Positions 1-27,582 of a stretch of DNA of 32,860 bases are shown here, piece after piece (the first letter of the stretch is position 1; every line of letters starts with the position of its first letter). Both the position numbers and the translations under genes were made by a program. The notes below the pieces were generated by a model that was given only the letters and a program-made list of their open reading frames with translations, was not told the DNA's origin and did not search any database. The DNA is from a virus, in the IMG/VR virus record IMGVR_UViG_3300021960_000298, positions 1-32,860 of that record. The stretch is one strand, 5' to 3'.

Positions 1-855
1 GCCTGCAAAGACGTCTTCTTCACCACCACCTGCTGCCGGTGCTTCGGCTCCAGTATCTGCACCTAAGTCTGCGCCTGCTTCGGCTCCGCCTTCTGCTCCA
101 GGAAACTCTCCGCCTCCTCCTTCAGCACCTCCGAATACATCTTCTCCAGATGCTGCATCATCAAATTGGGAGGTAATAGGACCTGATGCTAGCATATGTC
201 CGATCTTATCTAAGCATTGCTGGTATTCTGATACGTTGTTTAAGAAGTATCTTTTTCCTTCTACAGTAGCTTGAAATCCTTTTCCCATCCATTTTAATTG
301 AATGTCTTGTCCGTTTTTAAACTCTACTTTAAATGTAGATGGTTTTGGTGACATCCAACCTACTTTTTCTACAAACTCCTCAAACTCAGGAGTCATTAAG
401 TGTACTAAAGTCTTTTTTAATGTAGGGAATTTAGCTAAGATGTCGGCTGTTGGATCAGCTTCTTCTGCTGCTTCTACTTCTTCGGAATCAGCAAATTCAG
501 TATCAGGAGTTTCTTCTGGTACTTCCTCAGTCTCCTCTTCGTCGCCTTCAGCTTCTGATAAGTGGCCGGCGTATCCTTTAACTACGTTTCTAGGGTCAGC
601 CATATCTAGACCTTTCTGAAGGAAGTCTACTCTCTTTTGGATCACTCCTTTCATTAGCTGGAGAGTCTCTAGGTCAAACTCGTCTTCAACAGCATCTAGA
701 AACTCTTGAGTTTCCATTTCTGCAAGAAGTGTTCTTAGTTGAGTTTCGTTTAGACTGTAAGCTTCTTCAGGAAGAATAGCATTCATTGAAGCTGTTTCTG
801 CTAACAATTCGTAGTAAGCTTCTTCGATAATATCTTTTAAGTCCTGTTTAGTCAT
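1..855 (-). CDS. Acidic prohead-core-like protein, C-terminus cut by window edge
   Basis: An open frame runs from an ATG at 855 through 285 codons to the window edge without a stop, so the C-terminus is missing. The product is strongly acidic. Residues 1-20 form an amphipathic helix ending L-A-E (18-20), like the N-termini of several neighbours. Residues about 105-135 are rich in Glu and Asp. A more ordered part follows (about 137-235), and the visible end is a Gly/Ala/Glu-rich tail. Composition and the LxE leader suit a scaffold or packaged internal protein, but I do not recognise a named family. It begins just after the stop of the upstream gene, so both are probably co-transcribed. The serine-rich plus-strand frame at 302-619 is only its complement. 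Confidence 0.85.
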   Translation of the reverse strand, partial: MTKQDLKDIIEEAYYELLAETASMNAILPEEAYSLNETQLRTLLAEMETQEFLDAVEDEFDLETLQLMKGVIQKRVDFLQKGLDMADPRNVVKGYAGHLSEAEGDEEETEEVPEETPDTEFADSEEVEAAEEADPTADILAKFPTLKKTLVHLMTPEFEEFVEKVGWMSPKPSTFKVEFKNGQDIQLKWMGKGFQATVEGKRYFLNNVSEYQQCLDKIGHMLASGPITSQFDDAASGEDVFGGAEGGGGEFPGAEGGAEAGADLGADTGAEAPAAGGGEEDVFAG

Positions 856-856
856 C

Positions 857-2062
857 TTATCTTACTCTACAATGATCTTTACCTGTTAAATAAGGCTTTT
901 TACATTCAGTACCTTTAACGTGTGTTCTGCCACATTTACCGCAACAAGTAGCTTTATTCTCAGTCAAAGATTCATCAACCTCGCCTTTATATTCCTGTCC
1001 TGCTCCGATACCGGCTATTATCTTTTCTAGTTCAGCGGATAATGCTTTTTTCTTAGTAGTAAGGTCTTTTAGTATAGGTACTACTGATTTGTCTCCTTCT
1101 TTGTATTTCTTAGCTAGCTCTTTCATTTTAGTAACGGTGGCGTCTAGTTCTGTACGTACTGTCTTTTCGCCTCTCTTTCTAGCTTCTTTCAAGAACTTCT
1201 CGTTGTACTGTCCTAGGTTTATAGTATGTACTTTATCTAGAGAATCTTTAATCTTCATTACAATACCGTCATTCTCGATAACTTTAACTACCCCGTAACC
1301 TCTTAGTTGTAACTCTTTACCAGGTTTAATTTTCTCAAACTCTGCTTTTTTAATCTCGTCTAACGTATCTTCTTTTAGATTTTGTTCTCTTCTTGCTTTT
1401 TCGTCAGCTGCTAATTTTTCTAAACGTTTTTCGAAAGCAGATTTTTCTTTAGGTTCTGCAGTATCGTAGTCTGGTAAGTTAGCGAGTAAAGAGTCAGCCA
1501 TTGTACTTAACTCTTCGTCAGGATTAACATCCTTACCTTTTAATGCTCCAAATTGCCAAGCATCTCTCAAGTATTGAAATACTAAATCTTCTTTAGTACG
1601 TGGTTCGTAATCCTCTGCTAATTCTTCTCCAGAATGTCCATCTACTGCGGCATCGATTTGAGGCTTCATAGTCTCAAACTCTAAATAATGAGTAGCTTTA
1701 GATATGTACTCTCTAGCCATCATTACCTTGTGTTGCCACCAGTTAGGAAAATCTACATGATCTTCCATTTGTTCGTAGTGGTGGAGTAACTTATATAGTT
1801 TAGCAGCGTAATCCGCAGTATCAAAAGCAAACTGTTTTAACATACCGGGTTCGTCGTCTATATGACCTATAGAGATATTCTCTTCTTCCATCGGTGCAAT
1901 CTTTGCACCTTTCTTTTTCATCTCCATTTCTTCTTCAGGAGTTACGACTTGAGCAACAGTCTTACCAGAAGGTCCTGTTACTGTTTTTAACTTTCCTGTG
2001 TTTTCTGCTAGTACTTCTTGAATAGCTTCGGTGATAGTTTTTTTATTAAAAGACATGGCCAT
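857..2062 (-). CDS. Conserved phage protein with LxE leader and C-terminal Cys cluster
   Basis: The product is 401 residues from ATG 2062. An in-frame TTG lies further upstream at 2089, but it falls inside the CTATTTATAA promoter-like motif (2077-2086), so the ATG at 2062 (or 2056) is preferred. Residues 1-20 form a helix ending L-A-E. The next part contains a motif around DEPGMLK and a Trp-rich FPNWWQ segment that I associate with uncharacterised proteins of marine T4-like phages. The middle is charged and probably coiled (about 190-370). The C-terminus carries Cys in a CCGKCGR/ECKKP arrangement that may bind a metal. The function is unknown. The leader suggests a prohead-core or packaged protein, by inference only. 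Confidence 0.85.
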   Translation of the reverse strand: MAMSFNKKTITEAIQEVLAENTGKLKTVTGPSGKTVAQVVTPEEEMEMKKKGAKIAPMEEENISIGHIDDEPGMLKQFAFDTADYAAKLYKLLHHYEQMEDHVDFPNWWQHKVMMAREYISKATHYLEFETMKPQIDAAVDGHSGEELAEDYEPRTKEDLVFQYLRDAWQFGALKGKDVNPDEELSTMADSLLANLPDYDTAEPKEKSAFEKRLEKLAADEKARREQNLKEDTLDEIKKAEFEKIKPGKELQLRGYGVVKVIENDGIVMKIKDSLDKVHTINLGQYNEKFLKEARKRGEKTVRTELDATVTKMKELAKKYKEGDKSVVPILKDLTTKKKALSAELEKIIAGIGAGQEYKGEVDESLTENKATCCGKCGRTHVKGTECKKPYLTGKDHCRVR

Positions 2063-2076
2063 ATTATCTTGTTTCT

Positions 2077-2086
2077 TTATAAATAG
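2077..2086 (-). promoter_or_regulatory. Late-promoter-like motif CTATTTATAA
   Basis: Read on the coding strand this is CTATTTATAA, 14 bases upstream of the ATG at 2062. The same decamer or a one-base variant stands upstream of at least six other minus-strand genes in the window. It is probably the -7-type element of the late promoter class read by the gp55-like sigma factor, by inference. Confidence 0.5.
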
Positions 2087-2089
2087 CAA

Positions 2090-2320
2090 TTAGTCGTGGT
2101 AGTTAATGAATCTACGTAAAGCCTTAGCTTTAGTACTACCTTTATCTTTCATGCTACTGAGTTTCTGTCTTACTTTTGATATCTTGATCTTACCGTCTTC
2201 TCCTTTTAGGCTAGAGTCTTTAGATAAAATTCCTGGGTTCATTGCTTTATGAACATCTTTAGCTTCTTGCATCTCTGCAAGTACCTCTCTTACGATTTCT
2301 GTTAATTTTTCTCTAGTCAT
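2090..2320 (-). CDS. Small basic protein with LxE leader
   Basis: The product is 76 residues. Residues 1-16 form an amphipathic helix ending V-L-A-E (13-16), nearly the same as the leader of the next gene downstream and as an internal segment of the 284-residue protein at 2830-3684. The rest is Lys/Ser-rich and hydrophilic, ending in a basic helix and Asn-Tyr-His-Asp. If cleaved after Glu16 it would leave about 60 basic residues, which resembles T4 internal proteins in size and charge. The family is not recognised. No clear promoter precedes it, although CTATTATA lies about 8 bases upstream. Confidence 0.8.
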   Translation of the reverse strand: MTREKLTEIVREVLAEMQEAKDVHKAMNPGILSKDSSLKGEDGKIKISKVRQKLSSMKDKGSTKAKALRRFINYHD

Positions 2321-2347
2321 AGCTGTATAATAGAAACTACAAAAATA

Positions 2348-2413
2348 TTATATTAGGCCTCCTGGTCTCCCTGACGTAGTTCTTCTTCGGATATTTGAGG
2401 TAGGAAACTTCAT
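2348..2413 (-). CDS. Possible 21-residue basic peptide
   Basis: In the gap between two genes, an ATG at 2413, three bases after the preceding stop, opens 21 codons. They encode a very basic peptide with an Arg-Arg-Arg-Thr-Thr-Ser-Gly-Arg-Pro-Gly-Gly core. Placement directly after a stop is the only support, and the length is too small for coding statistics. It could equally be leader sequence for the 76-residue gene. Confidence 0.25.
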   Translation of the reverse strand: MKFPTSNIRRRTTSGRPGGLI

Positions 2414-2416
2414 CAG

Positions 2417-2833
2417 CTACTTTTCATTTCTTTCTTGCCAGTCGTATGAGATGCTATCTTTCTGAATAGGACCTCCTTTAGCCCAAGTTCTACAAGTTCT
2501 AGCTGAGTGACATTTAAAATGATGCATCCAACAATACCCTAATCTTCCATCTTCATCAGATACCTCACCAGGCATACAGTTTTCCATTCTTGGAGAAATA
2601 TCAAAAGCTACACAGTTGCCACACAGTGACTTCTTAGCTGCTTCTTCAGTAGTATCCCAATGCTTAGCAATATCTTTCCAGTAATCGCCGGGTTCATCTA
2701 CGTTTAATGGACCGTACTTAATGTGATCGGCTTTGATTGAAGCATCTCTATTCTTAGTGTTGATTTCTAAGTCTAAAGTAGCTACCGGACATTCTGTAGC
2801 AGCTTCTAATAAGATGTTGGTTAGCTTTCTCAT
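2417..2833 (-). CDS. Cysteine-rich conserved phage protein
   Basis: The product is 138 residues. The first ten end in L-L-E, a short version of the LxE leader. The remainder is a compact domain with eight cysteines: one at 15, a CGNC pair near 71-74, then Cys in the segments ENCMPG, YCWMHHFKC and RTCRTW. The spacing and accompanying His residues suggest a zinc or iron-sulfur site. I recall similar proteins, unannotated, in marine T4-like phages, where TKNRD and YGPLN segments are also conserved. It overlaps the stop of the upstream 284-residue gene by four bases, so translation is probably coupled. The function is unknown. Confidence 0.85.
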   Translation of the reverse strand: MRKLTNILLEAATECPVATLDLEINTKNRDASIKADHIKYGPLNVDEPGDYWKDIAKHWDTTEEAAKKSLCGNCVAFDISPRMENCMPGEVSDEDGRLGYCWMHHFKCHSARTCRTWAKGGPIQKDSISYDWQERNEK

Positions 2834-3684
2834 TTTTTCTTTTTCTTAGAGCTGTAGTTAGCAACACCTACGTTTCTACATTGACTAATAGCCATTGATT
2901 TGTAGGCTGAGGTTTTCATGCCGTATATGCCGTCTACTTTTTTATGGCAAGCGTCTTTTGGTTTACCGTCTGCTCTATGGGTAGCGGTTGCTTTACCAGG
3001 TTTCTTTTTCTTCTCAGCAAGCACTTCACGAACTAATTGCTCTAATTGCTCAGTAGTTACTTTTCCTTTCTTAGTATTAGTTATTACTTGAGCTCCTTTC
3101 TTACCTGCTGCTTTTGTATTTTTACTTTCTCCTAAATTAGTAGACTGGGTACCGCCTTGAGGTTTGATATAATCAGAAGCGAAAGCTTTTAAACTGTCGA
3201 CTGATTGAAATACCGGTGTTCCTTTTTCTTCTCCAGTTTCTACATCAATTAATGAATATTTAGCTCTATCGGAACCTATCTTAATTAACTTAAAGATAAA
3301 TTCCCCGTATCTTGATTCTAGTTCTTGAGGCCACTGTTCTTTCACTTCTCTAGTTACTTTTGCTTTTTTAGTATTACTTACAAACTGCTTACCTTTCTTG
3401 CCACCTTCCTTTTTCTTTCTAGCTGTAGCTGCTCTTTGTGACTGGGTCATTGAGTTTGCTTTTGCTTGAGGTAGACAGCGATCAGGATTACTCTGCTTTT
3501 TAGATGTACCGCAAGGACCGCCTATTTCACCGGATGATGTGATTCTTACCCACTTCTTTTTAATCCAGTCACGAAGGTTTTCAGCCATGACAGAATCCTC
3601 TTGAAGTATTTCTTCTAGAAGCTCTCTCATGAAAGCGTATGTAGCGCTATCAATGTTCTTCTTGTTGAAAGAATCTTTTGTCAT
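2830..3684 (-). CDS. Lysine-rich protein with duplicated segment and two LxE sites
   Basis: The product is 284 residues and strongly basic. Residues 1-29 form a helix ending I-L-Q-E. It starts SFNKK like the leader of the 857-2062 product, suggesting shared ancestry of the leaders. Residues 36-92 contain WVRI...GGPCGTSK...NPDRCLP and an Ala/Arg/Lys-rich tail, a small family I associate with marine phage proteins (possibly DUF6321; not certain). A segment of about 18 residues is duplicated at 95-112 and 194-211 (pattern GKKGxQ, NTKKxKVT). A second leader-like helix ending V-L-A-E lies at 213-224, followed by a basic tail with two Cys. It looks like two internal-protein units joined. Its start overlaps the cupin gene by 35 bases. 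Confidence 0.85.
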   Translation of the reverse strand: MTKDSFNKKNIDSATYAFMRELLEEILQEDSVMAENLRDWIKKKWVRITSSGEIGGPCGTSKKQSNPDRCLPQAKANSMTQSQRAATARKKKEGGKKGKQFVSNTKKAKVTREVKEQWPQELESRYGEFIFKLIKIGSDRAKYSLIDVETGEEKGTPVFQSVDSLKAFASDYIKPQGGTQSTNLGESKNTKAAGKKGAQVITNTKKGKVTTEQLEQLVREVLAEKKKKPGKATATHRADGKPKDACHKKVDGIYGMKTSAYKSMAISQCRNVGVANYSSKKKKK

Positions 3685-3991
3685 TTAAATCTATCTTTAT
3701 GACTAATTCACCTTCGCCTTTTATGACTCGGTGCCAATCGTGCCTTTCTATAAATAGTAAGTCTCCTACCTCTAGTTCATATGGTAGTTCGTTGTCGTAC
3801 TGAAAGCCCCATCCTTTACCGCATTCTAAGATTGTAATCATCCTATCCTCATCATCCTGGTGCCATTTAAGTTCTTCAGGATCTACGTTGGGAGAGAAGC
3901 TTCTTATTATACAGTCTTTAGTTACTGAGAGGTTGTGGTAAGGTCTACCAGTATCCTCCAAAGCTTGATTTGAGTCCGAGTAAGCTTGCAT
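3650..3991 (-). CDS. Cupin-like small protein
   Basis: The product is 113 residues, matching one cupin barrel. Metal-ligand candidates are His44 and Asp46 (WHQDDEDR), followed by a GWGF turn at about 60-63, a GDLLFIERHDWHRV strand pair (His84, His87), and an acidic/basic tail. In cupins and related Fe(II) oxygenases such residues bind a metal, but the partner ligands are not certain here. It overlaps the upstream gene by 47 bases and the downstream one by 35. A TTG at 3961 would shorten the first overlap. It sits among proteins with LxE leaders but lacks one. The substrate is unknown; it could be a modifying enzyme or a structural cupin. Confidence 0.75.
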   Translation of the reverse strand: MQAYSDSNQALEDTGRPYHNLSVTKDCIIRSFSPNVDPEELKWHQDDEDRMITILECGKGWGFQYDNELPYELEVGDLLFIERHDWHRVIKGEGELVIKIDLNDKRFFQQEEH

Positions 3992-4877
3992 ATCTTGGTA
4001 ATCGGCAAGACCAGTATCCTGCTTTAGTTTTATCTTTTTTAGCCGGGCAGTTGTGGCGGTCTGAGAAGGCTTTTCTTGCTTCTTTGTTATTAATCTTAGC
4101 TGTTAATCCGCCTTTAGCATCTCCAAAGTTAACTACTACAACGTTTCCTTTATCGTTCTTAGTATATACTTTGTACTTCTTAGGGCCTGAGCTTCTCATT
4201 GGTTTGTTGAGCTTAACCTCTTTACCTTTATATTTTGCTTCGCTAATGGTGTCTTCATTCTCTTCTGTGATATCCACTACCCATATATCTGGGTCTGGAT
4301 CTTCTTGAACTAACGAGGCAAGAACGTCAGCACCGGTAATTACTTTGTAATTAACTTGATCTCCTTCCATGTACTTTAGTACTGTTGGCATTTGAACTTC
4401 GTCGGTATCGGAGAATGTTATGTTTGGTTCCGGTAGCTGTCCTAGGAATGTTTTAATATCTGAGTACTTAGTTTTGTATCCTAACCCTCCTGCTGCTTTA
4501 GATTTTCCGGCTATATTTAACCATCTGTCTTCACCCATCTGCATTACCATTGGCTCTTGAGAAGCTGATTTCCAGGATGCTGCTGGTGATGGGATTACAA
4601 CTGCAATTTCGTTTATCATTGGAAAGTCTAAAGGTACTTTCTTACCTTCAAATATTCCGAACTCTCCTACTTCGGTTTCAAATAAAAGCTCCATATCCTC
4701 TAAACATAGTTCAGTAAGGATACCTTTGTTTATTAAATGACGGGCTTGCTTGATAGTAGAGAAGTATGCTTCTGAACCTGGACGGTATACGTTTTCGTAT
4801 AACGGTGTTTTAGTATCAAGATGGTATTTCATACCTTCTGTTAATACTTCTGTTAGTTTGGATTCTGTTAAAAGCAT
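3945..4877 (-). CDS. Prohead-core-type protein with conserved C-terminal phage domain
   Basis: The product is 310 residues. The N-terminus is Leu-rich with three overlapping (L)xE sites within residues 3-14. Residues 20-200 form a mixed domain I do not recognise. From about 215 there is a conserved module (KYKGKEVKLNKP, KKYKVYTKNDKGNV, VNFGDAKGG, DRHNC, GYWSCRLPRY) that I know from many uncharacterised T4-like marine phage proteins. It is preceded here by I-S-E (211-213), a possible prohead-protease site that would release the module. An upstream CTATTTATAA motif lies 11 bases before the ATG. A role in the prohead core or as a packaged protein is inferred from the leader and module only. Confidence 0.85.
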   Translation of the reverse strand: MLLTESKLTEVLTEGMKYHLDTKTPLYENVYRPGSEAYFSTIKQARHLINKGILTELCLEDMELLFETEVGEFGIFEGKKVPLDFPMINEIAVVIPSPAASWKSASQEPMVMQMGEDRWLNIAGKSKAAGGLGYKTKYSDIKTFLGQLPEPNITFSDTDEVQMPTVLKYMEGDQVNYKVITGADVLASLVQEDPDPDIWVVDITEENEDTISEAKYKGKEVKLNKPMRSSGPKKYKVYTKNDKGNVVVVNFGDAKGGLTAKINNKEARKAFSDRHNCPAKKDKTKAGYWSCRLPRYASLLGLKSSFGGYW

Positions 4878-4888
4878 AAAGTATTTCT

Positions 4889-4898
4889 TTATAAATAG
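4889..4898 (-). promoter_or_regulatory. Late-promoter-like motif CTATTTATAA
   Basis: On the coding strand CTATTTATAA ends 11 bases upstream of the ATG at 4877, in the short gap after the upstream stop (4899). It belongs to the same motif family as the sites near 2080, 9250, 22360, 24580 and 28255. Confidence 0.5.
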
Positions 4899-5474
4899 TT
4901 ACTCCATATGCTCCTTGAGGTGCTTGAGGTATTCGTTCATACCTGTGATCATTTCTTGCTTCTGTTTCTGAGTGTTTCCTTTCCAGTCTTCTACATCTCC
5001 TTCTTCGGTAACAAATGTCATTGTTTCATTAACTTGTTCTGTTACCCATTGTTCTAATCCTATAGCCCAAGCTTGCATATTGCCTTGCATCATCTGCTTT
5101 TCGTACTGCTCGTATAATCCAGCTTTACGTAAGTCAGCTTCCATATCAACAGTACAGTTAAAACAGAATCCATGAATCTTGTACATCTTCTTAGATAAGT
5201 GATGTTTCATTGATCCTCCGCATTTGGGGCAAGTCAGAGGTACCTGCATAGATTTTTTAGCTTGATCTAACTTAGTTATATTTTGTTTAACACCGTTTTT
5301 AATCGTCCAGGTTCTACCATCTTCCTCCCAGATGTCACCTTCGCTATGCTTTTCTTTTCTTTTAGAGTAACCGGTTCCGATTGTGGTACGGCTAGTGAAA
5401 TCTTTCTTAACTAAGTTTCTAACTCGATTGACTGCTCTAGAATCAAATTCTTTCTTCAGTTGACTCTCCTTCAT
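4899..5474 (-). CDS. Zinc-ribbon protein, conserved in T4-like phages
   Basis: The product is 191 residues. A four-cysteine zinc ribbon is visible: Cys82 and Cys85 (CPKCGGSM), then Cys104 and Cys107 (FCFNC). Before it, residues 43-75 contain the pattern EGDIWEEDGRTWTIKNG followed by KQNITKLD. After it come Tyr/Glu-rich helices with E-A-D-L-R-K-A-G-L and V-T-E-E-G-D-V-E-D-W. I recall this arrangement from uncharacterised proteins in several marine phage genomes. The N-terminus is basic and lacks a clear LxE leader. It overlaps the HAD gene by 32 bases. Nucleic-acid or protein binding through the ribbon is plausible, but no function is known to me. Confidence 0.85.
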   Translation of the reverse strand: MKESQLKKEFDSRAVNRVRNLVKKDFTSRTTIGTGYSKRKEKHSEGDIWEEDGRTWTIKNGVKQNITKLDQAKKSMQVPLTCPKCGGSMKHHLSKKMYKIHGFCFNCTVDMEADLRKAGLYEQYEKQMMQGNMQAWAIGLEQWVTEQVNETMTFVTEEGDVEDWKGNTQKQKQEMITGMNEYLKHLKEHME

Positions 5475-6063
5475 CTTCTTTATATAACTTTCTTAATCTT
5501 TCTAAAACTGATGAAATATCAGATGCATTCTCTGGGTGATGTATACCGATACCGCCTGCTGCTTCCCAGTTGGAGATGTTATCTCTTCTATCATCTATTA
5601 ATATAGGAATAAATCCTTGAGATATATCCTTTATTGCTATTTCTTGCTTATCTTTTGATCTCTTAAATATAACATCGCTAGAACTTAATCCTAAGTTTTG
5701 ACCTGCCCATTGAGTTTTCCCTTCAGTTGCTGTAGGGTCAAAGTTGCTAAAGTCTCTGTAAGCTCTAGGAGGTGCTGTTAGTAGTTTGGGATCATATTGC
5801 TTGATCGATGCCCATAATTGACGTCCTGATGGAGTCCATGGCATACCTGACCAGAACTTAGCTCCTACTCTTCTGATCATTGCCCAAAAGTAAGGTGCTC
5901 CTTTTTCAGCTTCAATCTCTCTAGGACTTTTGCCGAATAAGTATTCAAAGCGATACTTAAAATCGCATAATACTCCGTCCATATCACAATATAAACGGTA
6001 CTTTTTTAATTCAGGATTCATATCCTCCTTTGTAACTTCAAACAAATCTAATAAACTTTGCAT
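5443..6063 (-). CDS. HAD-superfamily phosphatase, 5'(3')-deoxyribonucleotidase-like
   Basis: The product is 206 residues. HAD motif I is C-D27-M-D29-G-V-L, where Asp27 would be the nucleophile and Asp29 the acid/base. Motif II is probably L-T-A-P (95-98), motif III the Lys around 134-139, and motif IV I-D-D-R-R-D-N (156-162). The length and the DMDGVLCDF signature fit the 5'(3')-deoxyribonucleotidase-like group, with nucleoside monophosphates as the usual substrate, although a nucleic-acid 3'-phosphatase cannot be excluded. About twenty extra residues precede the fold and include L-F-E at 7-9, a weak version of the local LxE leader. The gene abuts the nucleotidyltransferase fusion upstream and overlaps the zinc-ribbon gene downstream. 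Confidence 0.85.
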   Translation of the reverse strand: MQSLLDLFEVTKEDMNPELKKYRLYCDMDGVLCDFKYRFEYLFGKSPREIEAEKGAPYFWAMIRRVGAKFWSGMPWTPSGRQLWASIKQYDPKLLTAPPRAYRDFSNFDPTATEGKTQWAGQNLGLSSSDVIFKRSKDKQEIAIKDISQGFIPILIDDRRDNISNWEAAGGIGIHHPENASDISSVLERLRKLYKEDEGESTEERI

Positions 6064-8453
6064 TATAACTCTTGCCTAATACCTAACGCAGGTAATCTCT
6101 TGCGCCATAAGTTAAGAACTTTTTCTTTGTTATCCAATGAAATCATCGCTTTATCTAAATAATCATTCACTACATCGGCAAACGGTTTTTTAGATTTTTT
6201 AGCTTTATAATATAGTCCTTGAATCATAGCATCCACTTCTTTTGGAAGAGAGAAGTAAGAATCTTTATCTAATAAACCTGAGTCGATCATATCTCTTAAG
6301 TCTTGATCGTCAGGTAGATATTTACCGCTTCTAATATTCTCTCCGTCTTGAGTGAGGTGTTCTAATTCATGACGAACTACATCCTTAATATCCATTGATA
6401 CTTCTTGCCAGTTTGGGTTTTTAGGGATTTGGAAATTAACGTTAATCATCGGTTGAATTTCTTCTCCATCGTCGTCGAAGCCGGCATTAGCGCCTCCGTC
6501 TACTTTGTAAGTATCTTCTGTAAAGTTTACTACTCCCATAAAGTCAAATTCGAATTGAGTAGATTCAATATCTACTTCATCGTAATCTGGGTTACCTACT
6601 CTAAATTCAAATTCTGCTTTTTTATCTCCTCTATCGTAAGCATCTTTAAATGCTTCAAAAGCGATACGAGATAATCTGTTTGTGATCGTGTCGTATTTTC
6701 CTTCTGCCAAAACTGTTTCTACAAATCTTTTACCAAATGACACTCCGGTTGATCTTAATTTATTTGAAAGACTGGCTGGTAGTTGGAGTCTTGCAGCAAT
6801 CTTTTCAATATTATCTCCATGATCTCTCTGCAAGCGTATTACCTGTCTTATTAAATCCTCTTTTTGTGCTCTAGATAAAGATTCTATAATAGCAGACTCA
6901 TCGAGAGTTTCTTGCTCTTTATTTGAATTTTCCCAATCCCTAAATAAGAAGCTGCCTTTAGCGTGAGCTTCTTGCTCAATCTCTTTTAATTTTTCATCAG
7001 CATGAACATCAGTGGTATAGAAAGTTAGATCTCTACCTTCTAAGTTCTGCATATGGTGTATAAGTTCATGACAGAAACTTCTTAATACATCCTTAGGATG
7101 ACGTCCTGTAACATATAAAACTATCTCTTGAGTCTCTGGCTGATAGTAACCTGTTCTACCGAATAGGTTTTCGGCGTTCTCTTCATCTTGTCTGATTTTA
7201 ACCTCTGGAATAGGAGTAACTTTCATTCCTTTAGTCATACAGTACTCTAGGATTGAAGCAATATGAGGTGCAAAATTAAATTGACCGATTGTTTCTTCTG
7301 CTACTTCTGGTAGTTGTCTTTGATGAGGAGTCCAGTCGTCTTGGTGGTTCTTATTCTTATCAAAATACGGTACTGATACTCTAATATGATCTTGTCTATA
7401 CTCTACATCGAATTCATCTGGTAGAGCGTCTTGTAATATCTTTGTGTAGTTTTGAAGCTTTTGTCTTTCTTCGGAAGGAAGGACTGCAATAGGTGCTACA
7501 GGAGATCCTTTGGTGATTTCAGCTACTGCTAATTTAGGCGATGTAGCATTGGTTCTGAATTCAGGTTCTTTAGGAGAATTTCTTTTATATGCAGTTTTAA
7601 GTACCAAATCTTTTAGGTAATCATCTCCATACCCTTGATTTACTGCAGCGATATCTACTAGTTTTTTTAAATGAGTAAATACTCTATTCTCTCCTGCACC
7701 TAGAAAGTCTAGTTCATCGGGATACTTATCGTGTATCTTCTGCATTAGTTCGATAATATCTTCTTCAGTCAAACCTCTTTCAACTACCCTCTCTTTAAAG
7801 TGAGTTGTGAAGTTAATATCAATATCAAGATCAGCGAACATACTATCAAGAGTTCTTTCTAACTTGTTGAAATCTACTTTTTCCTCGTACATGAAGTTGG
7901 TAAACAGCTCATCGATAGCATCTGCCATTTTAGTTTCTGGTGTCTTCACAATATCGTATACTTTATCTTTATCTACTCCGTCAGGCAGTGCTTGGAAAAA
8001 TGCTTCCTTATCTCTTGCCTTTAGTGCTTTTCTTGCTGCCGTACCGCTAACATCTGTACCGGTTGATTCAACAACCTCTACATTTAAGTTAGGGTACTTT
8101 TCTCTATTCTTCTCTAAGTAAGCAGTTCTGTCAGCAATATCAGCTTTATCTTCTTCATCTCTAGCTCCTAAAAACCAATACACCTCATCTTCCGGATTCT
8201 TTGTAGCGTAGGAGTACACATGTCCGATAGGAGGTTTAGTTGCCGGTACTATCTCTAGATTACCGTTTAAGTTATCTTTATATAGGTTCCAGATAGCTAC
8301 AGCTTGAGATTGATCGATACCGTCTCTAATATTCTTACCGACAAAGATAATCATCTTATCTAAATCGGGTACTTGAGCTAAAGCTTGCTTAACTAATTCA
8401 TAGTGACCTTTGTGCGGTGGTTTGAATCCTCCTCCAACTACTCCTACTTTCAT
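6063..8453 (-). CDS. Nucleotidyltransferase fused to two HExxH metalloprotease-like domains
   Basis: The product is 796 residues and multidomain. Residues 1-170 form a cytidylyltransferase/NMN-adenylyltransferase-like fold: GGFKPPHKGHY carries the HxGH motif (H14-H17), and VSGTAARKAL (135-144) matches the second nucleotide-binding motif. A linker domain with HFKERVVERG (218-227) follows. Residues about 315-510 contain a zinc-metalloprotease signature HELIHH (462-467) with Glu-rich helices downstream. Residues 585-796 contain a second, HELEH (695-699). Between the two is F-V-E-T-V-L-A-E-G-K-Y-D (578-587), matching the neighbours' LxE leaders. Known families: HxGH enzymes transfer nucleotidyl groups; HExxH binds catalytic zinc. 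Inferred: a polyprotein cut at Glu584. The gene overlaps the kinase gene by four bases. The true substrates are unknown. Confidence 0.85.
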   Translation of the reverse strand: MKVGVVGGGFKPPHKGHYELVKQALAQVPDLDKMIIFVGKNIRDGIDQSQAVAIWNLYKDNLNGNLEIVPATKPPIGHVYSYATKNPEDEVYWFLGARDEEDKADIADRTAYLEKNREKYPNLNVEVVESTGTDVSGTAARKALKARDKEAFFQALPDGVDKDKVYDIVKTPETKMADAIDELFTNFMYEEKVDFNKLERTLDSMFADLDIDINFTTHFKERVVERGLTEEDIIELMQKIHDKYPDELDFLGAGENRVFTHLKKLVDIAAVNQGYGDDYLKDLVLKTAYKRNSPKEPEFRTNATSPKLAVAEITKGSPVAPIAVLPSEERQKLQNYTKILQDALPDEFDVEYRQDHIRVSVPYFDKNKNHQDDWTPHQRQLPEVAEETIGQFNFAPHIASILEYCMTKGMKVTPIPEVKIRQDEENAENLFGRTGYYQPETQEIVLYVTGRHPKDVLRSFCHELIHHMQNLEGRDLTFYTTDVHADEKLKEIEQEAHAKGSFLFRDWENSNKEQETLDESAIIESLSRAQKEDLIRQVIRLQRDHGDNIEKIAARLQLPASLSNKLRSTGVSFGKRFVETVLAEGKYDTITNRLSRIAFEAFKDAYDRGDKKAEFEFRVGNPDYDEVDIESTQFEFDFMGVVNFTEDTYKVDGGANAGFDDDGEEIQPMINVNFQIPKNPNWQEVSMDIKDVVRHELEHLTQDGENIRSGKYLPDDQDLRDMIDSGLLDKDSYFSLPKEVDAMIQGLYYKAKKSKKPFADVVNDYLDKAMISLDNKEKVLNLWRKRLPALGIRQEL

Positions 8454-9223
8454 GACTGTACGAATTGACTGAGTTTAGATTGTGCTTCTTCAAAACTTAC
8501 TGATTGTTGCACTCTTTTAGAAGACTGTTCCTTAGAAAGCAAATCAGCAATTTGTTGATTGAGTTCTGCTTTTCTCTTGTCAGACTTAGCTTGTTCTTCT
8601 GGAGTCTTAGGTTTACCTTTCGGAGAAGGAAACATCTTCTTTATAGCCTCTACATCGTAACTCTTATCAGCATCAGCAGGATCATTATCGATTACTACGA
8701 TATTGTCCCCAAATGCTTCCATATAGATATCTAAGTTCTTAGCTAATCCTGACCAGCTGCTTAGTACTGCAGGTGTTGGTAAGCTTCTATCTCTCTCAGC
8801 GTTCCTCTTTAACGAAGTCATTGGAGAGACATAAAGAGCAAACATAAATGTATTATATCCAAGTCTCTCTAAATCTGCTTTCTTTTTCAATAACGGTTTA
8901 AATGCAGCGCCTGTGCCGTCAATAACTATATTAAGTTTATCTTCAATAGCACTTACTTCTTTCTCTCTTGTAGTCTTTCTAGCACTACCCATCATCTTAG
9001 CAGCTTGAGAGAGTTGGTCTGGTGTCATATCTTTGAACTTAATCTCAGGACCGAACTCCTGTTTCAAAAGCACTTCATAATCATCATCTACGTTTATTAT
9101 CTTAAAATTCTCTAAATTAAGTTTTCTTAAAATAGTAGACTTACCGGAACCGGCAGGCCCAGCCATAAAGATGGCTTTTGGTGTAGATGATTCTTCAGAA
9201 AGAAGAGCTTCGATTAATCTCAT
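8450..9223 (-). CDS. P-loop kinase (zeta-toxin/polynucleotide-kinase-like) with LxE leader
   Basis: The product is 257 residues. Residues 1-10 are a short leader ending L-S-E. A Walker A motif follows at 22-30 (GPAGSGKST), an acidic NVDDDYE segment at 45-50, V-I-D-G-T-G (100-105), and an Arg-rich lid RNAERDR (140-146). This is the layout of small P-loop phosphotransferases such as zeta-toxin-like and polynucleotide-kinase-like enzymes. The phosphate acceptor cannot be told from sequence. The C-terminal 60 residues are Lys/Gln-rich and coiled. A CTATTTATAA motif lies 24 bases upstream. A HAD phosphatase sits two genes downstream, so kinase and phosphatase activities may work together. Confidence 0.85.
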   Translation of the reverse strand: MRLIEALLSEESSTPKAIFMAGPAGSGKSTILRKLNLENFKIINVDDDYEVLLKQEFGPEIKFKDMTPDQLSQAAKMMGSARKTTREKEVSAIEDKLNIVIDGTGAAFKPLLKKKADLERLGYNTFMFALYVSPMTSLKRNAERDRSLPTPAVLSSWSGLAKNLDIYMEAFGDNIVVIDNDPADADKSYDVEAIKKMFPSPKGKPKTPEEQAKSDKRKAELNQQIADLLSKEQSSKRVQQSVSFEEAQSKLSQFVQS

Positions 9224-14311: not shown

Positions 14312-15736
14312 TTATAGTATTCTTCTTCGTTCAAGATCATCAATAATACTTTGAATCTTCTCTTCAGAACCTTCTGGCATGTATTTTGGTTTTATTATAC
14401 CTCCAGAGGTTGCTCCTCCTGGTTTATTCTTATTGAGTAAGATTGTTCCTGCGGCATCTACGAATCTGTAAATGGAGTAACCTTTTGGTTCATGGACGGA
14501 TAAGTCTATCTCTTTATCTAACTCCAGGTGGTATTCTGTTCCGACTAATCTTACGTCCGTTATCGTTGCAGTCCTATATGAATTGTTGACCTTTAAAAAA
14601 ACAATTTTATCATATAGCTTGATTTCAAACGGGAGGGAGGGTGTTTGGTACCCGGTACCGGACGGTGATACGGGTTTATATGAGTTATTAGTTCCGTTAT
14701 TTATAAGGTCTGTTTCATCTATATCGTCACCTTCTATACCTAAGAAAATACAATCTCCGTTAACAATATTAACTCTATTAAAAGATTGAGTTACTAAGTT
14801 CAGGTTGCTCCCTTGTCCCCAGCCCTTGTGTTCTGTTCGAGTTTCTTCTCCGCTTGAAGCGGAAGTAAAGTATAGGTATGAAGCGGTTACTGCGTTAGCA
14901 TAACTTCCATCTAAGGTACTTATTATATTCTCAATACGCTTTCCTGCTGCTAGTACTTTTGCATCTCCTTCTAGACTTGACATGTTGTTACCAGCAAACT
15001 CTACGTCGTTTAATGAGATTGTGACATCTTTATTTGCTCTAAAATTCTGCTCTATTATACTTAATGTGATTTCATCGTTTGTAGGTTTTATTACGTTTCC
15101 GTCTAGGTCTATATAATACTTTATTGATGCTCCAGTTTTACGTTGAATGTCTGGAGAGGTTCCTCCTATCCAGTTGAAGTATGCGAAGTATGTTTGAGTA
15201 TCTGATACAGGTGGTACTCCTGTTTGAGAGCTTGCAATATTAAAATCAGTAGATGTATGTTTAGTTCCTTTGTACCTAGGTCCGCTATAGCTTTCTACTT
15301 CATAGTTACTGTTTTGGATTTGAGCATAACCGGCAGTCCTATTATTTATTGCGTCAATATTTGTAGGTACTAGTTGAGAAGCGTTGTTATCTACAGTCAG
15401 GAACCTGTATGTAGGTTCTCCAACTATAGCGTTACTTAATAGCGGTTCGTAATCGCTGTTCTTAAATTTACCTGCAATATACGGGGTGAAGACTGTAGCG
15501 GATGATACACTGCCTGTTGGTATAGTTGGGTGTTCTTGCTTTACAGCTAGTAGGAATGCGTTGGAGTCAACTGGATCTACTTCTATACGTCTTATATTGT
15601 ATTCGTAAAATCCATTGTCATGCTGCAGGTATATAGATTTTATATTAGGTATTTGATCAAGTGAACTTACTCCTCCTAAGGATTCTCGATGTATCCTGAT
15701 ATGTGCTATACCGTCTCCTTGTCCTTTTATTGGCAT
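14312..15736 (-). CDS. Tail or baseplate structural protein
   Basis: The product is 474 residues and soluble. It is rich in Asn, Ser, Thr and Tyr, with alternating short strands and loops and no signal peptide or membrane segment. It begins with a Gly-rich H-I-R-I-H-R segment and ends in a Glu/Arg-rich helix (EEKIQSIIDDLERRRIL). I do not recognise a named domain. Its place between the large 833-residue protein and the MGYLDN-type protein, with gaps of 11 and 34 bases, makes a virion role very likely. A baseplate-periphery or fibre-attachment role is inference from context. Confidence 0.8.
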   Translation of the reverse strand: MPIKGQGDGIAHIRIHRESLGGVSSLDQIPNIKSIYLQHDNGFYEYNIRRIEVDPVDSNAFLLAVKQEHPTIPTGSVSSATVFTPYIAGKFKNSDYEPLLSNAIVGEPTYRFLTVDNNASQLVPTNIDAINNRTAGYAQIQNSNYEVESYSGPRYKGTKHTSTDFNIASSQTGVPPVSDTQTYFAYFNWIGGTSPDIQRKTGASIKYYIDLDGNVIKPTNDEITLSIIEQNFRANKDVTISLNDVEFAGNNMSSLEGDAKVLAAGKRIENIISTLDGSYANAVTASYLYFTSASSGEETRTEHKGWGQGSNLNLVTQSFNRVNIVNGDCIFLGIEGDDIDETDLINNGTNNSYKPVSPSGTGYQTPSLPFEIKLYDKIVFLKVNNSYRTATITDVRLVGTEYHLELDKEIDLSVHEPKGYSIYRFVDAAGTILLNKNKPGGATSGGIIKPKYMPEGSEEKIQSIIDDLERRRIL

Positions 15737-21522: not shown

Positions 21523-21932
21523 TATACTTCAAAGTTAATTGCTACTTCGTCTTCTATGTTAGTCTCAGATACAGCGTACCTTAATTGGAACTGTACTAAG
21601 TTTTGATCTGGTGCTGAGTCTAATGTTAGGTTCCTAACAATAACTCTTGGGAAGTATAACTGTAGGTTCTCTAAGATTAATTCTCTAATCTCGTCAATCC
21701 TGTCTTGAGTGATATTTTCAAATAGTAAATTTCTTAGTCCTGCTCCAAAATTGAGGTTAAACACTCTTTCGTTCTTTCCTGTTAGAAAGAAGTTGATTAA
21801 GTTGTTTCTAATAGCATCTTTAGTCTGGTACGTAGAATTGAAAACAGCTCTACCTGAGAAAGGTAAAGCTATTCCTACAGCTTTTCTTGGCTGTAGATCA
21901 AGTGGGTCAATTTTACGTCTGTTATAGGCCAT
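21522..21932 (-). CDS. Baseplate wedge protein gp25-like
   Basis: The product is 136 residues, matching T4 gp25 (132). The family signature is clear: L-P-F near 23-25, an N-N-L-I-N-F-F-L-T-G-K-N-E-R-V-F helix (43-58), then N-L-N-F-G-A-G-L-R-N-L-L-F-E (59-72), which holds the conserved Glu and Gly. A C-terminal beta strand follows (Q-F-Q-L-R-Y-A-V). Gp25-like proteins stabilise the inner baseplate and help start sheath polymerisation. The gene sits between a small helical protein and gp6, as expected for the wedge operon. Confidence 0.93.
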   Translation of the reverse strand: MAYNRRKIDPLDLQPRKAVGIALPFSGRAVFNSTYQTKDAIRNNLINFFLTGKNERVFNLNFGAGLRNLLFENITQDRIDEIRELILENLQLYFPRVIVRNLTLDSAPDQNLVQFQLRYAVSETNIEDEVAINFEV

Positions 21933-22351
21933 TATACGCTAAACTTCTCTTTTTGTTTTCTATCTGCTGTGTTTACAATAGCTGCTGCTTTATTCACAAA
22001 TCCTAATTGTGATAAATCTAACCCTACTTTTGGTGCTGACGCTACTGCTGCTGCTACTGCGTTTGGATCATCAGAGATAGGTTTGGTTGCTCTACCTTGG
22101 GGCATAAATGCACTTCTGTTAAAGTTTTTAGCCATATCAGCTCTAAAATCACCTCCTCCGATGTTCTTATAATCTTCTGAGGTCATGCTGCCTTTTGTCT
22201 CGTTTAGAGCGTCTAAGATAGGATTGCCGGTGGATTGGGTAGTCTGTCTTGTAACCTGTTCCTGTACCGGCTGTTGCATTTCAGAGAGTTCTTCTCTAAT
22301 AGCCTCTCTTACTGCTTCTTTAATAATGTTTTTAAAATCAGATGCTTTCAT
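21932..22351 (-). CDS. Small protein with LxE leader in the baseplate operon
   Basis: The product is 139 residues. Residues 1-24 form a charged amphipathic helix ending E-L-S-E, the longest LxE leader in the window. A Gln/Thr-rich linker follows (25-42), then N-P-I-L-D-A-L-N-E-T and a region with F-N-R-S-A-F-M-P-Q-G-R. The C-terminal half is Ala/Val-rich. Its last base overlaps the gp25 start. No family is recognised. The CTATTTATAA motif lies only two bases before the ATG, so its message may be leaderless. Whether the leader targets the prohead or simply forms a helix is open, because neighbouring genes encode baseplate parts. Confidence 0.8.
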   Translation of the reverse strand: MKASDFKNIIKEAVREAIREELSEMQQPVQEQVTRQTTQSTGNPILDALNETKGSMTSEDYKNIGGGDFRADMAKNFNRSAFMPQGRATKPISDDPNAVAAAVASAPKVGLDLSQLGFVNKAAAIVNTADRKQKEKFSV

Positions 22352-26597: not shown

Positions 26598-26957
26598 TTA
26601 TTTAAGTATATTTTCTTTCTTTTTATTTTTCCACCGTGCTTTATACTTCTGATCCACGTAATAAACTTTTAAGTCCGCTTGATACTGATAGCTTGTAAAG
26701 TACATTGTAAAATCTGCTTCATATGAGTTTTTAGTAAACAGCCAAAAGCAATTATCATCTCGAAGCTCGTATTTTTTATCGGTAATGTACACAAGTACAT
26801 CTGCTTGGTACTCATACGGTACTTCACAAACAATTAAATCTGCTTGATAAGGAAAATCTACCTCTCTTACAATTTGAGCAGAAAGGGGTAGGGATAGTAG
26901 GTATAGTAAAACGAATTTACCACGCGCCGCGAGCGCGCAAAAGTATGACACGCGCAT
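26598..26957 (-). CDS. Secreted tandem-repeat protein, DUF6150-like
   Basis: The product is 119 residues from ATG 26957; a longer frame would overlap the upstream gene by 50 bases. Residues 1-27 look like a signal peptide: Arg and Lys before a hydrophobic core V-L-L-Y-L-L-S-L-P-L-S-A, then Gln. The mature part is tandem short repeats with consensus Y-x-A-D-x-x-V-Y (YQADLIV, YQADVLVY, YEADFTMY, YQADLKVY), ending in a basic tail. I recognise this pattern as DUF6150, a family of small secreted proteins in Bacteroidota. The function is unknown. Its presence suggests a gene acquired from a host. The first codons contain an unusually GC-rich segment. Confidence 0.8.
   Translation of the reverse strand: MRVSYFCALAARGKFVLLYLLSLPLSAQIVREVDFPYQADLIVCEVPYEYQADVLVYITDKKYELRDDNCFWLFTKNSYEADFTMYFTSYQYQADLKVYYVDQKYKARWKNKKKENILK
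26918..26942 (-). repeat. GC-rich hairpin in the start of the secreted-protein gene
   Basis: In an otherwise AT-rich genome, the segment from the second half of the signal-peptide leader contains the inverted repeat CGCGC-TCGCG-GCGCG. On the RNA it could form a 5-base-pair GC stem with a 5-base loop about 20 bases after the start codon. It could slow translation or be a relic of the insertion event. Confidence 0.5.
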
Positions 26958-26958
26958 A

Positions 26959-27582
26959 TTAGTAATAGGTTGGTTCTCCACGTTTAAAATCTTTAGCCAA
27001 CATTTCAATAGTTTTTATTGCTTTCTCAAGAGTTACATCAAAGAACTCTCTCGAAGATCCTTGATCAGTACCTCGTCTAAATTCAGATAGGTAGCGGTGT
27101 ACGCTATTTTCTATCATATAATCATTCTCTACCGGTAGTGCATAGGATAGTTTCCATTCAGAAACCACTCCAGCATTATTAATCTGCTCTAGGCGTTTTT
27201 GAGGATTTACTGCTTTTCCGATCTTTACGAAATCAAAAGCCGGGTTAGTTAATACGTAAACGAACTTGCCTTTAGAGTGGTACTGTTTGAACTTCTTAAG
27301 ATCTGCCGTTATCTTGCCGTACAAATATTTCCAGGTAAAAGTACCGGTCTCTGGAAGATACGGCATCTCGATCTCTATACGGTAGTCGCTATTGATCATC
27401 TTAGAGACCTGATCTGGAGAGTACTGTCTAAACTTATAGAGCATCTCTCTGTAATTATCTATCCATGTGATATGATTGTCGTGTAAGAGCGTATCTGGGT
27501 AATCAGAAGAGTAATCAAAGAGAGTAATGAGAGACTCAGATTCATACTCTAAAGCTTCTTCTAAAGATATATTCTTAAACAT
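26959..27582 (-). CDS. GIY-YIG-family T5orf172-domain protein
   Basis: The product is 207 residues. Residues about 105-195 match the T5orf172/MUG113 branch of the GIY-YIG superfamily: G-K-F-V-Y-V-L-T-N-P (105-114), V-K-I-G-K (119-123), R130-L-E-Q-I-N, Glu158 in I-E-N-S-V-H, and R-E-F-F-D (178-182). The first 100 residues are a helical, acidic part without a known domain. Proteins of this group occur in phages and mobile elements. Nuclease activity is assumed from the fold, not shown. It is two bases from the membrane-protein gene upstream and one from the secreted-protein gene downstream. Confidence 0.85.
   Translation of the reverse strand: MFKNISLEEALEYESESLITLFDYSSDYPDTLLHDNHITWIDNYREMLYKFRQYSPDQVSKMINSDYRIEIEMPYLPETGTFTWKYLYGKITADLKKFKQYHSKGKFVYVLTNPAFDFVKIGKAVNPQKRLEQINNAGVVSEWKLSYALPVENDYMIENSVHRYLSEFRRGTDQGSSREFFDVTLEKAIKTIEMLAKDFKRGEPTYY

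Follow-up and report, generated by a model that had tools for sequence, protein, structure and literature searches.

Predicted T4-type capsid-targeting leaders on candidate virion cargo proteins of an uncultured flavobacterial T4-like phage

A set of unrelated proteins in a T4-like myovirus begins with short amphipathic helices ending in [LIV]-x-E, and judging from the sequence these leaders are very probably T4-type capsid-targeting propeptides, cut off by the gp21 protease, on proteins that would be carried in the virion. By analogy with T4 we infer targeting, cleavage, injection and an action of this cargo on the host or its defences. The DNA is a 32,860-base IMG/VR fragment (G000; the whole stretch is called the window below) in which nearly every gene lies on the - strand. 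The phage is an uncultured, T4-like member of the flavobacterial Immutovirus group; the nearest cultured relative found is Flavobacterium phage immuto (77% identity over 98% of the prohead protease, with sister contig G001 as query). Contigs L001 and L047 are 99.95% and 99.97% identical to the left part of the window (L047 over window positions 1-7010) and can therefore be read as the same phage. Leftward of the window, L047 carries a 471-aa gene, the terminase, the portal, an 80-aa leader protein, gp21, the scaffold and gp23.

Results

Leader proteins of the window

In T4 the propeptides of the internal proteins, 10-19 residues long, are capsid-targeting sequences (CTSs) that gp21 cuts after L/I-X-E (PMC9026906). 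The sequence-only reading of the window had assigned leaders of the LxE type to the products starting at 855, 2062, 2320, 2833, 3684, 4877 and 9223 and a weaker L-F-E to the HAD protein starting at 6063, and had noticed SFNKK in two of them. All were found at those positions, and SFNKK is indeed common to the genes starting at 2062 and 3684. The seven clear leaders of this cassette are 10-29 residues long and the weaker HAD leader 9 residues.

The leader genes of the window are all on the - strand, and a vertical bar marks a predicted cut. The leader protein at 1..855 is acidic (mature pI 4.1) and has 285 of its 288 aa inside the window, its gene ending 9 nt plus the stop past the window edge (L047 6156-7022); its leader MTKQDLKDIIEEAYYELLAE (796..855) has a predicted cut after residue 20, LLAE|TASM. 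The protein at 857..2062, for which Pfam and PHROG searches gave no match, carries leader MAMSFNKKTITEAIQEVLAE (2003..2062, predicted cut after residue 20), an internal predicted cut site, VDESLTE|, and directly behind this site a C-terminal Zn-binding-type module NKATCCGKCGRTHVKGTECKKPYLTGKDHCRVR (860..958). It is followed by a small basic leader protein at 2090..2320 (mature pI 10.1; leader MTREKLTEIVREVLAE at 2273-2320) and by a cysteine-rich one at 2417..2833, whose leader MRKLTNILLE| (2804-2833) has hydrophobic residues at T4 CTS positions 4, 7 and 8, plus E10. The basic protein at 2830..3684 (mature pI 10.0), which matches phrog_23735 (unknown function), consists of leader MTKDSFNKKNIDSATYAFMRELLEEILQE| (3598-3684), a GPCGxS basic module, an internal leader-like segment TTEQLEQLVREVLAE|KKKK (3013..3057, predicted cut after residue 224) and a second basic module. 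The protein at 3945..4877 combines leader MLLTESKLTEVLTE (4836-4877) with a C-terminal phrog_7595 domain. The HAD-type 5'-deoxyribonucleotidase at 5443..6063 (phrog_2643, 3e-22) has an N-terminal extension of ~21 aa ahead of its YRLYCDMDGV motif, beginning with the weaker leader MQSLLDLFE| (6037-6063), and the zeta-toxin-like P-loop kinase at 8450..9223 (Pfam PF06414, 4.2e-12; PDB 1gvn, 5.8e-5) begins with MRLIEALLSE| (9194-9223).

Inspection of the N-termini revealed no leader on three cassette genes (3650-3991, 4899-5474 and 6063-8453), and the notion of a tag on each gene of the cassette was accordingly rejected. The 796-aa protein encoded at 6063-8453 has a nucleotidyltransferase-like N-terminus, a RegB-like segment and two metallopeptidase-like stretches; it lacks an N-terminal leader but has an internal ETVLAE site ahead of its last part. 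A ninth leader protein, at 21932..22351, sits outside the cassette among baseplate genes, adjoining a gp25-like gene; its 24-residue leader MKASDFKNIIKEAVREAIREELSE (22280-22351) has IIKE and LSE sites. A short protein of repeated YQAD-type strands (YQADLIV, YQADVLV, YEADFTM, YQADLKV) is encoded at 26598-27008.

The gp21 protease and its expected substrates

A Pfam search of the window for S77 gave no match because the protease gene is situated beyond its left end. The gp21-like protease that had been predicted in that direction was found on L047, at 15015-15596, and since this contig is 99.97% identical to the window, the required protease exists in the phage. For the gp21 of its relative (L015/G001), the PHROG match is phrog_207 (head maturation protease; 4.5e-51), and alignment with T4 gp21 gives 35% identity over 160 residues. 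The two align in the segments GEL[DN]HP and [IV]SSRG, which we take to carry the catalytic His and Ser.

Sites of the same type were found in the head proteins. The gp23 of the phage group has a conserved QAK[QE][ILV][VI]xE with a variable stretch directly after it, as would be expected at the end of a propeptide, and the scaffold has PEVI[AST]E shortly ahead of its C-terminal RMQKLAGI. The small leader protein encoded close to gp21 has QLSE|MSTTGTGASF in L047 and VLAE|TSATGTGASF in G001, and gp23 reads LIKE|ASSTGTGG; the sequence after the site is thus shared as well.

Two immuto proteins (L031 21675-22139 and L041 25061-25456) begin with MKKQILSEQF[RK]RMQ.LAGIITE, repeating the scaffold-terminal RMQKLAGI, which is possibly a scaffold-derived docking tag in this position. 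Another immuto leader protein, of 146 aa (L031 13366-13806), begins with MISIYNILKE| and has a GEGDYGAVFLV stretch resembling the glycine loop of protein kinases; its Pfam match was not significant.

Conservation of the leaders and of the module junctions

Counted as distinct N-termini of orthologs, which are not independent observations, phi-phi-x-E is kept in 24/25 cases for 1-855, 8/8 for 2090-2320, 5/5 for 2830-3684, 11/11 for 3945-4877, 7/7 for 8450-9223 and 4/4 for 21932-22351, as well as in 7/7 homologs of 857-2062. Orthologs of 2417-2833 have phi-phi-x-E in 3/4 and [LIV]xE in 4/4, and those of the HAD protein (5443-6063) have [LIV]xE in 17/17 and phi-phi-x-E in just 7/17 distinct N-termini. 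Among the 1-855 orthologs the same leader precedes bodies of very different length; in some it ends in VLAT or VLAS, not VLAE, and a further LFE or LSE then comes. Furthermore, a leader of the form MTKDSFNKK...FMREL[IL]EE[VI]L[AQ]E is followed at the same locus by the body PGLWANIRAK... in G001 and by the GPCGxS module in the window, the two being unrelated.

The Zn-binding-type module (KATxCGKCG..HVKG) was found in 24 contexts, as different as a position directly after an N-terminal leader and the C-terminal end of a 1,116-aa protein. In all 24, P1, the last residue ahead of the junction, is E and P3 one of L, V and I, the other upstream positions being unconserved, and the last 33 residues of the 857-2062 protein are therefore predicted to be released.

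In phage C75C1 and Pelagibacter phage HTVC203P the GPCGxS module forms the start of the protein, without leader, and the HAD homologs of phiCbK, OLIVR1, Atu_ph07 and BUCT-ZZ01 start at or near the domain; this contrast is one of gene setting and not of protease presence, some of these phages being T4-like. The kinase of Methylophilales phage Melnitz starts with MKTFAELQE|GVYD, close to the T4 sequence MKTYQEFIAE.

The proposal of a T4-like packaging and maturation tag on unrelated proteins is thus strengthened by the presence of gp21 to the left, by the gp23 and scaffold sites, by a motif kept while the bodies change and by junctions at [LIV]xE. Its description as the mark of one cassette has to be relaxed, three cassette genes being untagged and the tag occurring outside as well.

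A polymorphic leader gene left of the window

L047 carries a leader gene (7025-8440; N-terminus MDILDKLIQEWSWRTEKGYPD...GIDLKE) that begins 15 nt to the left of the window and is polymorphic among relatives. Across 48 distinct N-termini, [LIV]xE stands at residue 10 in 47 (in the T4 register in 46) and again at residues 37-43 in all 48, and in pairs with different bodies identity drops to about 0.07 past residue 41. A wider scan gave 86/87 at residue 10 and 84/87 at residues 37-43, as compared to 19% of random 17-residue body stretches. Most bodies fell together under single-linkage clustering when no coverage rule was applied; clustering with such a rule, used instead, yielded 9-13 body families. 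Representatives have leaders that are 52% identical, and 74 of 78 pairs show no similarity in their bodies.

In an AF2 model of body family C0 (pLDDT 78), two helices form the leader, confidence is low at residues 36-43 and a folded body follows. The model matches HinP1I (2fkc) with Z 9.7 over 200 residues at 4.2 A and MspI (1sa3) with Z 7.8, weaker rows being more restriction enzymes and Holliday-junction resolvases. D218, S231 and K233 are invariant in 18 sequences of the family, the S replacing the usual acid of [E/Q/N/S]-x-K. The C0 bodies are thus predicted to fold like the PD-(D/E)XK restriction endonucleases HinP1I and MspI, a call that rests on the structural aligner, the three invariant residues and the prevalence of PD-(D/E)XK enzymes among the aligner's matches, since plain Foldseek returned weak E-values. 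The body of the window phage itself, in the 471-aa gene, belongs to family C3, for which AF2 gave pLDDT 36; compared with cyanophage homologs it conserves an E, P-x-D-I and SLKK only. No relation was found between C0 and C3 by profile comparison, and PDB sequence searches with both profiles gave nothing convincing. Additionally, a Pfam scan of eight representative bodies, even at E 5, contained no MuF domain, and no methyltransferase partner was seen beside the gene.

Homologs of C3 bodies were found in 68 phage records and homologs of C0 bodies in 24, nearly all of them cyanophages, and in the cyanophage records examined their genes lie between mazG and a nucleotidyltransferase gene. We considered whether the leader is also present on the cyanophage homologs of the nuclease-like bodies and rejected this, none being visible at five N-termini; among the records examined, the leader appears specific to the flavobacterial-phage group. 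In cyanophage S-RIM44 a single locus (L209 4647-6146 and L210 4626-5858) holds a C3-type body in one isolate and an unrelated C0-type body in another, its flanks being 99.4% and 90.6% identical between the two; exchange of bodies at a single locus therefore occurs without the leader too.

It is possible, at a little under even chances in our estimate, that phages of this group load a polymorphic nuclease into the head. Its constant 41-residue capsid-targeting propeptide would be joined, exactly at the prohead-protease site, to any of nine or more interchangeable bodies resembling restriction endonucleases, which after injection would cut DNA that lacks modification, whether it belongs to the host or to rival elements. 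That the nuclease-like bodies aim at host or rival DNA is a fair guess. The immuto genome contains genes for 7-deazaguanine DNA modification, and one may speculate that this modification could shield the phage's own DNA from such cargo.

Alternatively, the helices might simply dock the proteins to the scaffold or to the inside of the capsid, proteolysis being incidental or absent for most of them. The HAD leader, which retains LxE but has a weaker helix pattern, would agree with this, as would the N-terminus of immuto gp083, which carries the RMQKLAGI motif that ends the scaffold, and some immuto leaders (MKKSQLREIIRKELQ) without a clear site. We nevertheless regard it as improbable since the most constrained junction positions are the E at P1 and the aliphatic residue at P3, and since the swap boundary of the neighbour gene coincides with the site, neither of which docking alone would require.

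It is still less probable that the proteins are scaffold-type core components degraded and expelled at maturation, like T4 gp67 and gp68, and not delivered cargo. The acidic 1-855 protein and the internal cut sites in 857-2062 and 2830-3684 do recall the multiply cut core proteins of T4 (PMC9026906), and for 1-855 itself such a role is plausible; the kinase, the deoxyribonucleotidase and the nuclease-like bodies, however, are folded enzymes without obvious use in a scaffold, and body swapping suits effectors better.

Enrichment of the leader motif

We compared a bare motif, LxE in residues 5-30, with a strict motif, phi-xx-phi-phi-x-E, modelled on T4 IPIII, in which positions 4 and 7 serve targeting and positions 8 and 10 processing (PMC9026906). 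The T4 register itself (hydrophobic residues 4, 7 and 8, and E10) fits the 10-residue leaders at 2833 and 9223, the longer leaders fitting the general form only. Bare LxE occurs in 8/11 cassette genes versus 9/25 other genes of the window (p = 0.047), and in T4 in 11/12 known core and internal proteins versus 66/199 others (33%). Its chance rate is 33-38% of the non-head genes of T4, G001 and the window, and 26% in immuto, so that bare LxE is weak evidence for leaders.

The strict motif was found in 7/11 cassette genes versus 3/25 others in the window (p = 0.003), in 8/21 versus 7/95 in G001 (p = 9e-4) and in 14/30 versus 17/183 in immuto (p = 3e-6), p-values that are indicative only because the motif was fixed after the leaders had been seen; shuffled N-termini gave an expectation of 0.6 of 11. 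In T4, the positive control, it occurs in 6/12 known core and internal proteins and in 18/199 others, missing half of the known set. A PSSM trained on the window leaders showed weak enrichment in immuto (p about 0.02), since the immuto leaders differ slightly (KKSQLRxIIKE, FDLKKFLVENKLTxNSxxLxE), and was dropped in favour of the T4-based motif. On extending the motif search beyond the cassette, as had been suggested, enrichment in the cassette is clear for the strict motif and marginal for bare LxE, and one further leader came to light, at 22351. That the leaders are ordinary amphipathic N-terminal helices with LxE by chance, as the presence of bare LxE in about a third of unrelated genes and its slight contrast in the window would allow, is very unlikely given the enrichment of the strict motif in three genomes, the fixation of [LIV]xE at all 24 module junctions and at the leader/body boundary of the neighbour gene, and the matching sites of gp23 and scaffold.

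Discussion

If the leaders are cleaved capsid-targeting propeptides, the amphipathic N-terminal helix would dock the cargo into the scaffold core during prohead assembly, the gp21-type prohead protease would cut after [LIV]-x-E, freeing the mature cargo within the head, and this cargo would be ejected from the head with the DNA. The cargo set would comprise small basic proteins, a Zn-binding-type module freed at internal sites, a zeta-toxin-like kinase and a deoxyribonucleotidase; the neighbour gene would add a constant 41-residue leader followed by exchangeable bodies, of which one family or more may be restriction-endonuclease-like. For the small basic proteins, counter-defence can fairly be guessed because the T4 proteins Ip1-3, which have the leader as their sole shared part, each inhibit different GmrSD restriction enzymes (PMC12373910).

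The type of tag is known; the novelty would lie in its phage group, in the internal module sites and in a nuclease-like cargo that is polymorphic, with swaps at the cut site. Our literature search found no description of such leaders in T4-like phages, whether flavobacterial or otherwise marine, which is not proof of absence. If our interpretation is true, an amphipathic leader ending in [LIV]xE in a phage with gp21 becomes a rule for predicting virion cargo among the uncharacterised genes of aquatic T4-like phages, and many unnamed small proteins gain testable roles. The neighbour gene would then be a phage-delivered effector, diversified by swaps of the mature domain at the maturation cut site, in the manner of MuF toxins and by way of the T4 head pathway. 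The cultured relative immuto makes the leader hypothesis directly testable.

Several known systems resemble parts of this arrangement. In phiKZ and SPN3US, many head and ejected proteins carry propeptides, multiple cuts occur and the protease is gp21-like (PMC9026906), the phiKZ cut motif being S/A-x-E (PMC9026906) as opposed to [LIV]-x-E here. The C0 bodies share with HinP1I/MspI-type PD-(D/E)XK enzymes a predicted fold and the invariant D218, S231 and K233; they differ in standing behind a capsid-targeting-like leader with no adjoining methyltransferase seen, and as nucleases they are predicted only. The polyvalent proteins of phages and conjugative elements are multi-domain and believed to reach the host cell together with the DNA (PMC5512222). 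The protein at 6063-8453, which joins nucleotidyltransferase-, RegB- and metallopeptidase-like parts, resembles them in such combining of domains; the portions of that account used here do not describe a T4-type leader as sorting signal, and 6063-8453 also has none. The MuF polymorphic toxins of temperate phages (PMC5576092) similarly join a constant N-terminal phage part to a variable C-terminal effector; in the neighbour gene, by comparison, a 41-residue leader containing predicted protease sites takes the place of the constant part, the bodies searched have no MuF domain, and the gene sits in a T4-like packaging cluster.

The closest parallel is with the leaders of T4 IPI, IPII, IPIII and Alt, likewise short N-terminal propeptides ending in [LI]xE; the window leaders agree with the T4 internal-protein definition, in which the propeptide at the N-terminus has 7-65 residues and L/I-x-E as its end. 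MRLIEALLSE, MRKLTNILLE and MDILDKLIQE have the hydrophobic residues 4, 7 and 8 and the E10 of T4 MKTYQEFIAE, a gp21 homolog is present in the same phage, and unrelated bodies stand behind one leader type. The differences from T4 are that the cargo bodies are not those of T4, that the leaders span 9-41 residues, that internal leader-like sites join modules, and that one leader precedes a set of 9-13 swapped bodies.
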